From Acidimicrobiaceae bacterium (lineage in GTDB: Bacteria > Actinomycetota > Acidimicrobiia > Acidimicrobiales > RAAP-2): a stretch of DNA of 64,000 nucleotides. Under the pieces are notes generated by a model. It saw nothing but the letters and a program-made list of their open reading frames with translations. It was not told the DNA's origin and did not search any database. Numbering within the stretch: the stretch's first letter is position 1; every line of letters starts with the position of its first letter. Location of the stretch: positions 1 through 64,000 of the forward strand of contig DAHUYG010000050.1 of assembly GCA_027315315.1 (NCBI GenBank), given 5' to 3'. Of this stretch, positions 3,754-59,217 are shown in pieces. The translations under genes were made by a program, and so were the position numbers.

Positions 3754-5106
3754 TCAGCGGCCCCCGATGCGCACCCGGAGCTTGAGCGGGGTTGGGCCGA
3801 GCTCGAAGCGCTCGCGCAGTTGGTGTTCCACATAGCGCAGGTAGTCGGCGGGCATGCGAGCGGTCGCGAAGAGCGTGACGGTGGGCGGGTCGATCGCCCC
3901 CTGCACTCCGTAGCGGATGCGAGCGCCTGGGGCCGGATGCTTCGCCTGCAGGTCGCGCAGGGCGCGGTTGAGCGCGCCGGTGGGGATCCTCGTGTGGTAG
4001 GCCTCGACGGCCTCCCGCACCGCCGGGAGCACCTTGTGCACGTTGCGGCCGGTCTTGGCCGAGATCCGGATGACCGGGGCCGACCCCAAGAAGGCCAACC
4101 GGTCGCCGACGCCGGCGAGCACGTCCTCGCGCTCCTCGGGGGCGACGAGGTCCCACTTGTTCAGCACGACGACCGAGGGGCACCCCGCAACCCCGATGCG
4201 CTCGGCCAGCCGCTGGTCCTGGTGGGTCGCCCCCACCGTGGCGTCGATCACGAGCAGCGCGATGTCGGCACCGTCGAGCGCGTCGAGCGCCCGGAGCACC
4301 GCGTGGTGTTCGGTCCCAAAGTCGGTGCGCGAGGGCCGGCGCATCCCGGCCGTGTCGACGAAGCAGAATGCCCCCTCCTCGGTCTCGATGACCGTGTCGA
4401 CGGCGTCCCGGGTCGTACCGGGCATGTCGTGGACGATGGAACGCTCCTCGCCGACCAGGCGGTTGAAGAGGGTCGACTTGCCGGCGTTCGGACGTCCGAC
4501 GAGCGCGACCCGGGGCACGTCGGGGTCGCGCCCGACGCGCTCGTCGTCGGGGTCGGCGACGTCACCCTCGGGGAGCAGCGCCACGACGGCGTCGAGCAGG
4601 TCGCCGGTCCCCCGACCGTGGAGCGCGCTCACCATCCACGGATCGCCCAGCCCGAGTGAGACGAGCTCCCACGCCGCGCCCTCGCGGTTGGTGTCGTCGA
4701 CCTTGTTGGCGACGAGGAGGATCGGGACCCCGACCCGCTTCATCAGCCGGGCGGTCTCCACGTCCTCCTCGGTCGGCCCGACGGTCGCGTCGGTGACCAT
4801 GAGGACGACGTCGGCCGCCCCGAGGGCGCGCTCGGACTGGCGGGAGACCTTGGTCGTGAGCTCGTCTCCGCGGCCGAGCCATCCCCCCGTGTCGACGAGG
4901 TCGAAGCGGCGCCCGTTCCACTCGGCCTCGAGGGCCTTGTAGTCCCGGGTGACCCCCGGTTCGCTCTCTACGACCGCGGCGCGGCGGCCCACGATCCGGT
5001 TGACGAGGGTGGACTTGCCGACGTTGGGCCGCCCCGCCACGACGACCACCGGGCGGGCGCTCGGGCGCTCGGGCGGCACCCGGCTCGGCGCGCTCGTCTC
5101 GGTCAC
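3754..5106 (-). CDS. der: Ribosome-biogenesis GTPase Der (EngA)
   Basis: A 450-aa double Era-like GTPase needed for 50S subunit maturation. The first G domain has GRPNVGKST (P-loop), DTGG and NKVD. The second has [13 protein letters not shown] and NKWD. A KH-like C-terminal domain ends in [10 protein letters not shown]. Length is normal. An open frame continues far upstream on this strand, but family start position and the GTGA overlap with the stop of the DUF512 gene place the start at GTG 5106. It follows the DUF512 gene in the same operon. Confidence 0.96.
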
Positions 5107-6461
5107 GACGTCCCCTCGATGGCCCGGCGCAGGGAGCGGCCGTCGGTCGCGACGACCTCGACCGGGCGAGGGAGGTCGCTCTGGGTCCCCCCGTCGAGGA
5201 AGGTCCCCTTGGACAGGCACGCGTCGGGCAGCAGGTAGCGGTGGCCCTCGGGCTCCCCGGCCAGCACCCGGGCGACGTCGCTCGCCGTGAGCAGGCCGGC
5301 CACGCCGATGGTGCCCCCGAAGTAGTGGTTCTCGACTGGCACCACGCGCACCGCGTCGCCCAGCTCGCCGAGCAGCGGCCCGAGCACCTCGGCTCCGAAG
5401 GTCCCGGTCAGCACGGCGACCGGCGCGCCGGGGGTTCGAGGCGCCGTGGGCTCGGCCCGGGGCGAGCGGTAGCCGGCCGGGGGGGCGCCGTCGACCCAGG
5501 CGAAGAACCCCGGCCGGACCCCGTGGGCGGCCCCGGCGTCCCCGCCGAACGCCGCCTCGAAGGCCCGGACCATGCCGATCCCGTTCTCGTGCTGGGGGTA
5601 GCCCTCGTATGCCTCGGCCTCGGGGAAGGGCCGCCCGGCCATCAGGTAGTACTCGTCGGAGGCGAAGACGAGGCGCCGCCCGAGGAGCGAGGCGCACAGG
5701 TCCTGGTGTCGGTGGATCGTGTCGAGCACCCGGGCCGCCTCGGCCGAGCTGTGGGGCCGCATGTCGGGTTCCTTGGAGAACCGGCTGAGCCCGAGCGGGA
5801 CCACGCCGACCGAGGCGAGCTCGGGGTACTCGTCGACGATGCCGACCATGGTGTCCTCGAGGACCGCCCCGTCGTTCACCCCCGGGCACACGACGACCTG
5901 CCCGTGGACCTCGATGCCGGCATCGAGTAGCACCCGCAGCCACCGCAGGCTGGTCGCGCCGCGCGGGTTGCGCAGCATGGCGGCGCGCACGTCGGGGTCG
6001 GTGGCGTGGATCGACACGAACAGGGGTCCGAGACGCTCGGTGATGACCCGCTCGGCGTCGAGCTCGGTGAAGCGGGTGAGGGTGGTGAAGTTCCCGTAGA
6101 GGAACGAGAGACGGTAGTCGTCGTCCTTCAGGTACAGGCTCCTGCGCATCCCCTTGGGGAGCTGGTAGATGAAGCAGAAGGCGCAGTGGTTGTCGCAGGT
6201 CCGGACCCGGTCGAAGACCGCCGCCGACACCTCGATGCCGAGGGGCTGGCCGGCGTCCTTGACCACGCGCAGCCGCCGGTCGACGGCGCTCCCGGGGCGC
6301 CGGACGACCACCTCGACGCGTGCCGCGTCGACCAGCTGCCGGTACTCGATCACGTCGCGGGGCTGCGCACCGTTCAAGGAGAGGAGCTCGTCGCCCACCT
6401 CGAGGCCGGCCGCAGCCGCCGGTGAGCCCTCCAGGAGGGCCGTGACCTTGGGGGCCGACAT
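5103..6461 (-). CDS. DUF512 / PDZ radical SAM protein
   Basis: A 452-aa protein with an N-terminal PDZ-like segment (about 1-75). A radical SAM site follows with CxxxCxxC at Cys89, Cys93 and Cys96 (CDNHCAFC), and the rest is the DUF512 region, including the SIHATDP and VVCPGVND motifs. The family is widespread beside der in Gram-positive bacteria, but its reaction is unknown; it should bind a 4Fe-4S cluster and cleave SAM. The ATG at 6461 sits 4 nt from a perfect inverted repeat shared with divergent ispH. It overlaps der by four bases. Confidence 0.92.
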   Translation of the reverse strand: MSAPKVTALLEGSPAAAAGLEVGDELLSLNGAQPRDVIEYRQLVDAARVEVVVRRPGSAVDRRLRVVKDAGQPLGIEVSAAVFDRVRTCDNHCAFCFIYQLPKGMRRSLYLKDDDYRLSFLYGNFTTLTRFTELDAERVITERLGPLFVSIHATDPDVRAAMLRNPRGATSLRWLRVLLDAGIEVHGQVVVCPGVNDGAVLEDTMVGIVDEYPELASVGVVPLGLSRFSKEPDMRPHSSAEAARVLDTIHRHQDLCASLLGRRLVFASDEYYLMAGRPFPEAEAYEGYPQHENGIGMVRAFEAAFGGDAGAAHGVRPGFFAWVDGAPPAGYRSPRAEPTAPRTPGAPVAVLTGTFGAEVLGPLLGELGDAVRVVPVENHYFGGTIGVAGLLTASDVARVLAGEPEGHRYLLPDACLSKGTFLDGGTQSDLPRPVEVVATDGRSLRRAIEGTS

Positions 6462-6467
6462 AAGCCC

Positions 6468-6473
6468 AGGCTA
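6468..6473 (-). promoter_or_regulatory. Leaderless -10 (TAGCCT) of DUF512-der operon
   Basis: TAGCCT, then six bases, then the ATG at 6461. No Shine-Dalgarno sequence can fit. It lies inside the inverted repeat shared with ispH. Confidence 0.6.
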
Positions 6474-6537
6474 CCGGGGTGGGGCACCTGGCCCATCGAC
6501 GCCCCGGGCCACTTGTCGGGCCAAGAGGGGGCCCCGG

Positions 6538-6543
6538 TAGCCT
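6538..6543 (+). promoter_or_regulatory. Leaderless -10 (TAGCCT) of ispH
   Basis: TAGCCT, then GGATCC, then the GTG start at 6550. It is a mirror image of the DUF512 promoter. A weak TTGTCG at 6513-6518 could serve as -35, with a long 19-nt spacer. Confidence 0.6.
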
Positions 6544-6549
6544 GGATCC

Positions 6550-7596
6550 GTGGGTGTGGACAAGGTGCTGCTCGCCGAGCCCCGGGGGTTCTGCGCCGGG
6601 GTGGAGAAGGCGATCAAGGCGCTGGCCTGGATGGTCCGCGTCTTTGACCCGCCCGTGTACTGCTACCACGAGATCGTCCACAACCAGCTGGTGGTCGAGG
6701 AATTCCGCAATCTGGGCGTCGTCTTCGTCGACGACGTGGCCGAGGTGCCGGCCGGCGCCCCGCTCATGCTGAGCGCGCACGGCACCGCCCCCTCGGTCGT
6801 CGAGGAGGCCCGGGGCAGGGCCCGGGTCGTGGTCGACGCGGTGTGCCCGCTCGTGACCAAGGTCCACCACGAGCTGAAGATGCGCTCGAAGAAGGGCTAC
6901 CAAGTCCTCTACGTGGGCCACGCCGGCCACGAGGAGGCGGTCGGGACGATGGCGGTCGCCCCCGAGGCCGTGCACCTGATCGAGCACGAGTCGGACCTCG
7001 AGGCGCTCGGCGGGATCGACCCCGACACCCCGGTCGCCCTGCTCGCCCAGACCACGCTCAGCCACGACGAGTGGCGCGACCTCATGACCGCCGCCCTCGA
7101 GCGCTTCCCGGGCCTCTGGCTGCCGGGGCGAAGCGACCTGTGCTTCGCCACCACCAACCGGCAGGCCGCCCTGCGCGAGATCGCCGCCCGGGTCGACGCG
7201 GTGGTGGTCATCGGCTCGCCCAACTCCTCCAACACGGTCGCGCTGGAGAAGGTGGCCACCGCCTCGGGCTGCCCGAGGGTGATCCGGGTGGACGGGCCGG
7301 ACGAGGTCCCCCCCGACCTGAGCGGCACCGTCGGGGTCACCGCCGGCGCGTCGGCCCCCGAGCAGCTGGTCGAGGCGGTCATCGAGGCGCTCGCCCCGAG
7401 CGGGGGCGTGGAGGTCGTGCACGTCACCACCGAGGACGAGTACTTCCCGCCGCCGCCCGAGCTGCGCGAGCTGCTCCGGGCGCTCGCCACGACGGTCGGC
7501 CTGCTGACGGGCCGGCCCGCCCCCGGGGAGGCCGACCCCTCGGCGGGTGATCGGAGCGTATCGGCCGCCGACGTGCTCGAGGCCCTGGTCCCCTGA
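6550..7596 (+). CDS. ispH: 4-hydroxy-3-methylbut-2-enyl diphosphate reductase
   Basis: A 348-aa last enzyme of the MEP isoprenoid pathway, reducing HMBPP to IPP and DMAPP with a 4Fe-4S cluster. The cluster ligands are Cys15 (GFCAGV), Cys99 (VCPLVTK) and Cys198 (DLCFATTNRQ). The active-site histidines are in HEIVHN and SAHGTAP. The SPNSSNT motif contacts the diphosphate. Length is usual apart from a slightly long tail. The GTG start at 6550 is chosen because it aligns with the family and follows a TAGCCT box. The gene stands alone, divergent from the DUF512-der operon. Confidence 0.96.
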   Translation: MGVDKVLLAEPRGFCAGVEKAIKALAWMVRVFDPPVYCYHEIVHNQLVVEEFRNLGVVFVDDVAEVPAGAPLMLSAHGTAPSVVEEARGRARVVVDAVCPLVTKVHHELKMRSKKGYQVLYVGHAGHEEAVGTMAVAPEAVHLIEHESDLEALGGIDPDTPVALLAQTTLSHDEWRDLMTAALERFPGLWLPGRSDLCFATTNRQAALREIAARVDAVVVIGSPNSSNTVALEKVATASGCPRVIRVDGPDEVPPDLSGTVGVTAGASAPEQLVEAVIEALAPSGGVEVVHVTTEDEYFPPPPELRELLRALATTVGLLTGRPAPGEADPSAGDRSVSAADVLEALVP

Positions 7597-57451: not shown

Positions 57452-59217
57452 GTGAGGTCGAGGTCACGCACGCCACCGGTCGGGGCGCCACCCCCGCGGC
57501 CGGGGATCCGGGGCGATCCCGGGAGCGGGCCGGCGTCGACCACATGGTGACCGCCACCCCGCTGTGGTTCGGGCCCGAGCACCGTCCCCTCTTCGGGTGG
57601 GTGCACGGGCCGGCCGACCGCCGCAGCGCGGGCGCCGTGGTCCTGTGCCCGCCGCTCGCCCGGGAGCTCGCCTGCGCGCACTACACCTACCGCCTGCTGG
57701 CCGAGGAACTGGCCGAGGCCGGGATGCTCGCGATCCGCTTCGACTACGACGGCACCGGGGACTCGGCCGGCTCCGAGCGCGACCCGGGGCGCGTCGCAGC
57801 CTGGCTCGAGAGCATCGGCGAGGCGATCGCACTTGCCAGGCGGTGCGGGGTGACGAACGTGTCGCTCGTCGGGATGCGCATGGGTGCGCTCCTCGCAGCG
57901 GTGGCCGCAGCGCGCCAGGGCGGGGTCGACGGCCTCGTGCTGTGGGACCCCTTGGCATCGGGCCGGTCCTTCCTCCGGGAGCAGTCGGCCCTCCAGCGGC
58001 TCCGCAGCGACCTAAAGCCGCTCGACGACGGCCGGGTCGAGCTGCCCGGATTCGTCTACAGCGCCGAGACCGTCGCCGAGCTCGGCGCACTGGCCATGCC
58101 CGAGCCGGCCCGGGTCCCGAGGCGGGCGCTCGTCTTGACCCGCCCCGAGCGCACCCCGCTCAACGGGTTGATCGAGCGGTTGGGCGTCGAGCCCGAGCTC
58201 GGCGAGGCGATCGGCCAGGACCAGTTGCTCGAGGTGGAACCGCTCTACCACGAGATCCCCAAGGCGACGAGCGCCCGGATCGTCGAGTGGCTCGGGAAAG
58301 AAGAGGCCGAGCCCCGCGTCGAGCTCAACGTGCCGGTCCGCGACCGGGCGTCCTTCCACCACGACGGGGCCCGCCTGACCGAGCGCTTCGTGTGGCTCGG
58401 GGACGTCTCGATGTTCGGCGTGGTGACCGAGCCCGAGCAACGGCTGGACGCCCCGAGCATCATGTTGCTCAACGCGGGCAACGACTGGCACGTCGGCCCC
58501 AACCGCCTGTGGGTCGACGTCGCCCGGCGCTGGGCCGCCCTCGGGTTCCGCTGCCTGCGCTTCGACGAGAGCGGACTCGGCGACAGTCCCGCCAGGCCCG
58601 GGGTCCGCTCGCACGTGGTGCGGCTCCCCGAGACCTTCGAGGACGTGCACGAGGCCCAGGACTCCCTGGAGCCGGGCGACCCCACGAACGTGATCATGGT
58701 CGGCCTGTGCTCGGGCGGCTACCAGGCGCTCGAGAACGCGCTGGTCCGGCCGGCCCGCGGGGTCTACGCGATCAACCCGATCCTGCACTTCACCCCGCCC
58801 GAGCTCGCCTGGGGCCCGATGGACCCCCGCCGGCGCATCTGCTTCCCCTCGAGCTCGCTCGTGTCGGCCTACCGCAACATCCCGGGGCTGGCCCCCCTGC
58901 GCCGGGGCGTGCGTGGGATCGCCTGGCGCGCGCTGCGCCTGTTGCACCGCGACCGGGACCCCTCCAGCTGGCTGGACGAGCTCCGCGAGAGCGGGGTGCG
59001 TGTCCTTGTCATCGGGGGCGAGAACGAGACCCGGCCCTTCGGGACTCCCGCGGGCACCGGCGATGCGGAGCTCGTCCAGATCGAGGTCGTGCCCGGCCTC
59101 GACCATGCGCTCATGCCGGCCTGGCACCGCGACGCCGTGCTCCAGCGGATGACCGAGCATCTCGTGGAGCACTTCGCGCCGGGGGCCGGCTCCCGGCCCG
59201 GGCGCCCGTCGGCCTGA
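57448..59217 (+). CDS. Tandem alpha/beta hydrolase
   Basis: A 589-aa protein with two alpha/beta-hydrolase domains. Domain 1 (about 35-280) has RFDYDGTGDSAG and a nucleophile elbow SLVGMRMGAL near 142, in which the expected Ser is Arg, so it seems inactive. Domain 2 (about 340-575) has RFDESGLGDSPA, an elbow VGLCSGGYQ near 420 with Cys in the nucleophile place, and a late His in VVPGLDHALM. Similar paired hydrolases occur in polysaccharide and exosortase loci. It may release or transfer the aminoacyl group of the carrier (inference). GTG 57448 overlaps the ligase stop. Confidence 0.82.
   Translation: MSEVEVTHATGRGATPAAGDPGRSRERAGVDHMVTATPLWFGPEHRPLFGWVHGPADRRSAGAVVLCPPLARELACAHYTYRLLAEELAEAGMLAIRFDYDGTGDSAGSERDPGRVAAWLESIGEAIALARRCGVTNVSLVGMRMGALLAAVAAARQGGVDGLVLWDPLASGRSFLREQSALQRLRSDLKPLDDGRVELPGFVYSAETVAELGALAMPEPARVPRRALVLTRPERTPLNGLIERLGVEPELGEAIGQDQLLEVEPLYHEIPKATSARIVEWLGKEEAEPRVELNVPVRDRASFHHDGARLTERFVWLGDVSMFGVVTEPEQRLDAPSIMLLNAGNDWHVGPNRLWVDVARRWAALGFRCLRFDESGLGDSPARPGVRSHVVRLPETFEDVHEAQDSLEPGDPTNVIMVGLCSGGYQALENALVRPARGVYAINPILHFTPPELAWGPMDPRRRICFPSSSLVSAYRNIPGLAPLRRGVRGIAWRALRLLHRDRDPSSWLDELRESGVRVLVIGGENETRPFGTPAGTGDAELVQIEVVPGLDHALMPAWHRDAVLQRMTEHLVEHFAPGAGSRPGRPSA

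Follow-up and report, generated by a model that had tools for sequence, protein, structure and literature searches.

What does a perfect inverted repeat that reaches almost to the start codons of two divergent genes represent: a site at which one protein controls both genes, or something more ordinary? The question is raised by the gap between ispH and a gene for a DUF512 protein in the window, which is the whole 64,000-nucleotide stretch of Acidimicrobiaceae DNA that was analysed. An inverted-repeat search found two arms of 14 nt that are 100% complementary, CCAGGCTACCGGGG at 6466-6479 and CCCCGGTAGCCTGG at 6532-6545, with 52 nt (6480-6531) between them. The left arm lies 4 nt (6462-6465) from the ATG of the DUF512 gene, which runs from 6461 down to 6459 on the minus strand, and the right arm lies 4 nt (6546-6549) from the ispH GTG at 6550. 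Each arm contains the hexamer TAGCCT, at 6468-6473 on the minus strand and at 6538-6543 on the plus strand, with a spacer of 6 nt to its own start. The first-pass annotation of this DNA had described just such a perfect 14-bp repeat, with arms 4 nt from the starts and TAGCCT 6 nt before each, and the description is exact. Its further statement that the two promoter and start regions are mirror images stands for the 14 bp and fails for the rest, the 52-nt middle and the 4 nt beside each start being asymmetric. The features concerned are the following.

5103 to 6461, minus strand: protein of the radical SAM type that also has a PDZ domain and a DUF512 domain (cobalamin-binding type); matches to Radical_SAM_2, DUF512 and PDZ_6; predicted leaderless ATG at 6461.
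6466 to 6479, no strand assigned: left arm of the 14-bp inverted repeat, from the inverted-repeat search.
6468 to 6473, minus strand: -10 box of the DUF512 gene, TAGCCT, with a 6-nt spacer to the ATG; TANNNT kept in 95 of 102 loci of relatives.
6480 to 6531, no strand assigned: middle between the arms, 52 nt, its length and much of its sequence variable within the genus.
6532 to 6545, no strand assigned: right arm of the 14-bp inverted repeat, from the inverted-repeat search.
6538 to 6543, plus strand: -10 box TAGCCT of ispH, after CGG (the CGN-TANNNT form) and 6 nt before the GTG; TANNNT kept in 101 of 102 loci of relatives.
6550 to 7596, plus strand: ispH (4-hydroxy-3-methylbut-2-enyl diphosphate reductase), with a match to LYTB (IspH); predicted leaderless GTG at 6550.

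The ispH product matches TIGR00216 above the family cut-off, and we take IspH to be an Fe-S enzyme. The DUF512 protein carries a C-x3-C-x2-C motif, read from its translation, which is presumably the radical-SAM motif. Both products look like Fe-S enzymes, in agreement with the first-pass annotation. The predicted start codons of both genes are well placed: the open frames extend only three codons further upstream (351 versus 348 aa for ispH and 455 versus 452 aa for the DUF512 gene), and relatives mostly align from residue 1 or 3. The part of PMC11659888 that deals with DUF512 describes cobalamin as bound by this domain.

The window contains two perfect inverted repeats of at least 14 nt (loops 0-100), against a mean of 0.25 expected from 40 first-order Markov copies of it. 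Length alone is accordingly not decisive, since one repeat of 14 bp in 64 kb is not very unusual; what is rare is that its arms sit symmetrically at the two starts. The other perfect repeat, CTGGACGAGCTCCGC, has arms of 15 nt at 58972-58986 and 59066-59080, 79 nt apart. A mobile repeat was considered as the source of the arms and ruled out, a search with the 141-bp region having returned a single match in its own genome.

We propose that the repeat is very probably two opposed copies of the common housekeeping leaderless promoter of this actinobacterial lineage. Each copy would be a CGN-TANNNT -10 box read by RNA polymerase with the main sigma factor, and transcription would begin on the A or G of the start codon or no more than one or two bases away from it; the actual start sites and the sigma factor are both what we infer. 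Each mRNA would then lack a 5' leader and a Shine-Dalgarno sequence, the arms themselves would not be transcribed, and ribosomes would load on the bare start codon. With 88 bp between the starts and 64 bp between the boxes in the window, two polymerases would stand back to back with their upstream ends nearly touching, so that some mutual interference is possible. The mirror-image look of such back-to-back promoters would arise because the distance from box to start is fixed by leaderless initiation.

The evidence for this proposal begins in the genome itself. In a sample of 626,093 of its 2,473,916 bases, 14,968 ATG or GTG codons begin frames that stay open for 100 codons or more. Before these codons TANNNT was counted 49 times at spacer 6 and 23, 21, 24 and 9 times at spacers 7, 8, 9 and 10, and every remaining spacer in the range 0-25 has 1-9 occurrences. 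Given this peak at spacer 6, leaderless promoters are predicted to be a general feature of the genome. The same arrangement is known from other Actinobacteria: a survey of bacteria (PMC3160421) reports TANNNT about 12 bp upstream of starts in this phylum, and a study of Mycobacterium tuberculosis (PMC3898074) reports TANNNT without a -35 element and in many cases after CGN; 26% of the genes with a primary start site have leaderless transcripts there. The boxes studied here resemble those promoters in that TANNNT begins about 12 nt upstream of the start codon, in the frequent CGN and in the lack of a -35 element and of a Shine-Dalgarno sequence, and CGG-TAGCCT in both arms fits the published CGN-TANNNT form. 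GG precedes the box slightly more often at promoters (20/93) than elsewhere (56/401). Unlike in M. tuberculosis, which belongs to another group of Actinobacteria, the starts here are predicted from sequence.

This promoter form also serves unrelated housekeeping genes. Eighteen places in the genome have the pattern CGGTANCCT at a distance of 5-8 nt upstream of RTG, compared with 7 for a reversed control pattern. Twelve of the 18 were fetched, and the ten besides the ispH/DUF512 pair include thrS, glyS, dapB, purK, an aminotransferase gene and a CocE/NonD hydrolase gene. At one of the sites (L196) the frame is just 8 codons long, and the match there is probably due to chance; of the nine proteins scanned at such sites, two (L197 and L198) gave no family match at 1e-10. 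Aminoacyl-tRNA synthetase genes are likewise among the users of the published actinobacterial leaderless promoters (PMC3898074, PMC3160421). The match of the ispH arm to the promoter of the CocE/NonD hydrolase gene runs over 17 nt, longer than the 14 nt that it has in common with the DUF512 arm. An Fe-S regulon was rejected as an explanation of the pattern, which at the 12 of 18 places fetched marks thrS, glyS, dapB, purK, the aminotransferase, the hydrolase and others and no Fe-S gene set.

The boxes are also conserved across the order. From 138 loci, mostly in records titled Acidimicrobiaceae or Acidimicrobiales, 121 remained after the removal of 17 duplicates, and in 102 of these the DUF512 gene is divergent from ispH within 400 bp; the other 19, of which several are truncated by the end of the contig or locus, lack an adjacent divergent DUF512 gene within that distance and were dropped. 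TANNNT stands at spacer 4-11 before ispH in 101 of the 102 adjacent pairs, before the DUF512 gene in 95 and before both in 94, compared with 2.8% in shuffled sequence, with starts moved to a nearby in-frame ATG or GTG where the aligned codon was not a start, an adjustment that can only raise the box count. Without it, in a smaller set, the boxes are found in 87/90 and 83/90 loci. Of the eight failures, one is on the ispH side (L013) and seven are on the DUF512 side (L154, L160, L161, L098, L106, L074 and L103), where the assigned start is doubtful and most of the loci have TANNNT deeper in the gap. The spacer is 6 or 7 nt in 82/94 and 87/94 loci on the two sides. SD-like sequence is nearly absent (ispH 2/94, DUF512 1/94; none visible in the window), and at least four matches to the -35 consensus TTGACA occur in 6 and 6 of the 94 loci versus 8.6 and 8.7 in shuffles, the window itself having 4 and 3 matches. 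The first-pass reading of the gap as a pair of divergent leaderless promoters is thereby upheld, by the genome-wide peak at spacer 6, the conservation in the order and the near absence of Shine-Dalgarno sequence and -35 consensus. Two of the loci (L075 and L081) come from records titled Candidatus Saccharibacteria and Acidobacteria, which carry ispH loci of actinobacterial type and are probably mislabelled or mixed bins.

Divergent pairs of this sort have counterparts elsewhere. M. tuberculosis has juxtaposed divergent promoters that give two leaderless mRNAs back to back, prpD and its neighbour in the example described in PMC3898074; in that example one of the partners is a regulator, whereas here both genes encode enzyme-like proteins. 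The bidirectional promoters of Escherichia coli also show symmetric -10 sequences and divergent transcription, but the account of them in PMC12825309 places the starts beside or within one shared -10 element, and here there are two boxes 64 bp apart. Divergent starts around or within one shared -10 element, the arrangement of a bidirectional promoter in the sense of Warman et al. 2021 (as cited in PMC12825309), are not found in the window. A literature search combining divergent promoters, ispH and leaderless initiation returned no match.

If two ordinary promoters lie so close together, might the proximity itself couple them? A polymerase at one promoter could exclude a polymerase from the other and so couple the output of ispH and the DUF512 gene with no regulator, since the promoters are back to back and many relatives have them within a single polymerase footprint of each other. 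The gap between the two genes in relatives is 28-340 nt with a median of 58; it is at most 42 nt in 23/94 loci, where occupation of both promoters at once would be unlikely and competition would be expected, and at most 70 nt in 58/94. The inner distance between boxes falls to 4 nt in one relative (L008), and PMC12825309 describes mutual exclusion at E. coli bidirectional promoters. In the window, however, with starts 88 bp and boxes 64 bp apart, exclusion would be partial, and the gap is not conserved, some relatives having more than 100 nt. Helical phasing of the boxes was looked for and rejected: an 8.5-bp peak among 87 loci with an inner distance of at most 90 vanished once related loci were thinned, 0.54 of null runs being as high in the thinned set of 36 loci, with nothing at 10.5. 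Coupling by competition is thus, in our estimate, rather unlikely as the explanation. The gap of 28 nt in L008 holds two TACCCT -10 boxes in a near-palindrome, which might behave nearly like a genuine bidirectional promoter.

The first-pass annotation had suggested another explanation, in which one protein binds the repeat and could control the two Fe-S enzymes together; such a protein would be a dimeric or paired regulator on the two arms. The arms are indeed perfect in the window, and ispH and the DUF512 gene are adjacent across many lineages. An alignment of seven congeners keeps the boxes, flanking bases and starts but has a middle of variable length and sequence, and a symmetry of 13-14 bp persists through these changes in L001, L035, L036 and L136. 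Two congeners share the same altered base on both sides: among the loci with runs of at least 13, two have TAGCCT on both sides and two have TAACCT on both sides, which looks like paired change. The remaining congeners, L037, L039 and L040, lack the symmetry. Absence of the repeat from close relatives had been named in the first-pass annotation as one of the observations that would refute its reading, and it is seen in part, the repeat being kept in 4/7 congeners and lost in 3/7.

Across the 94 loci the two sides show no evident coupling. TATCCT occupies the DUF512 side in 26/94 loci and the ispH side in none. On an ispH tree of 94 rows there are at least 34 hexamer changes per side, and no co-change is seen: among 17 independent pairs, of which few are informative so that power is modest, G at position 3 differs the same way on both sides in 1.9, the opposite way in 3.3 and not at all in 11.8. 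Symmetric arms at a fixed spacing, as expected of a palindromic operator, are not found in the relatives, where the gap ranges over 28-340 nt and runs of at least 13 occur in 4/94 loci. The boxes also survive the loss of the partner: ispH retains TANNNT in 17 of the 19 loci without an adjacent divergent DUF512 gene, and in the seven loci with the DUF512 gene elsewhere on the locus a box precedes both genes in all seven, when candidate starts within 24 nt of the aligned one are allowed. The motif stands in front of thrS, glyS, dapB and purK as well, and the arms sit on the -10 boxes themselves, so that an extra protein is unneeded. We reject a shared operator on the variable spacing, the lack of visible coupling between the sides, the loss within the genus and the persistence of boxes without a partner, and we consider control of both genes by one regulator very unlikely. 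A gap that looks more operator-like than the studied repeat is found at L127:7677-7724, where 46 nt between two other divergent leaderless genes hold repeated TTAGTA/GTTAGTAAC-like words.

The two-promoter proposal has still to account for the length of the run, which is unusual and confined to one genus. When 93 sampled leaderless sites were compared in 4278 pairings, a 14-nt run was seen for the ispH/DUF512 pair and for no other; one pairing reaches 12 and four reach 11. Ten further divergent leaderless pairs in the sample have symmetric runs of only 2-5, and symmetry is therefore not general among such pairs. Runs of at least 13 occur in four of the 94 loci of relatives, all in one genus, compared with 0.53 by permutation (0/2000 permutations as high). 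The same hexamer is found on both sides in 26/94 loci against 12.5 expected, and in 14/82 against 11.4 (p about 0.20) when the 12 loci of one TAGGCT group are left out. Other sampled leaderless genes of that group seldom use TAGGCT (1/23). Counts of TAGGCTN{6,7}RTG against a control in four of its genomes were 40/11 (G294), 27/28 (G291), 43/60 (G292) and 45/70 (G293), an excess in one of the four. A lineage preference for TAGGCT is not proven in that group and does not fully explain the identical hexamers. We read the excess symmetry as shared descent and shared motif preference in two groups, where both promoters may also be under a shared constraint, and we infer that the extra matched bases in the one genus are motif preference plus coincidence.

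Template switching or gene conversion between the inverted repeats could instead have made the arms alike in that genus, which would fit runs of 13-14 in 4/94 loci of a single genus with hexamers that differ between loci and are alike within each. In L036 and L136, though, the sequence upstream of the box is not the same in the two arms (ggcgccgg and gccgccgg versus gaccccgg), the fork joining the two locus pairs is weak (85/22) and neighbouring genera commonly have TAACCT on the ispH side, so this origin appears extremely improbable. We give practically no credence to an RNA hairpin or terminator, which a 14-bp inverted repeat might suggest, as the arms lie upstream of both predicted starts, between divergent genes, 52 nt apart and with no T run.

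If the repeat is two ordinary promoters, a striking palindrome at divergent starts is explicable by lineage-wide promoter geometry, which calls for caution when operators are predicted in high-G+C Actinobacteria. The roughly one hundred loci in which two abutting leaderless promoters are conserved become usable for tests of polymerase competition.

The neighbourhood of ispH and the DUF512 gene is more interesting than the palindrome. Other classes of the phylum contributed 26 DUF512 loci (in the L207-L236 set; 30 of 44 matched genomes gave loci). In 19 of the 26 an IspH-like gene lies beside the DUF512 gene in the same direction, and in seven none was found, the loci being short and two of them cut by contig ends. 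The four loci from the class to which the window belongs, with the window itself counted, have the two genes divergent. Given that the neighbours are co-directional outside the class and divergent inside it, the pairing seems older than the divergent arrangement, and its survival through the rearrangement suggests an old functional link. The neighbourhood speaks for a connection of IspH with a DUF512 enzyme, and this connection merits follow-up. A bolder version, which we regard as distinctly unlikely, would make IspH and the DUF512 radical-SAM protein a functional pair in Actinobacteria whose close leaderless promoters compete and so proportion the two products with no regulator; the near-perfect mirror copies in this genus would then equalise promoter strength. 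A second IspH-like gene with 44% identity is present in the same genome (G000:C63:3628-4545), and several other members of the family also have one.
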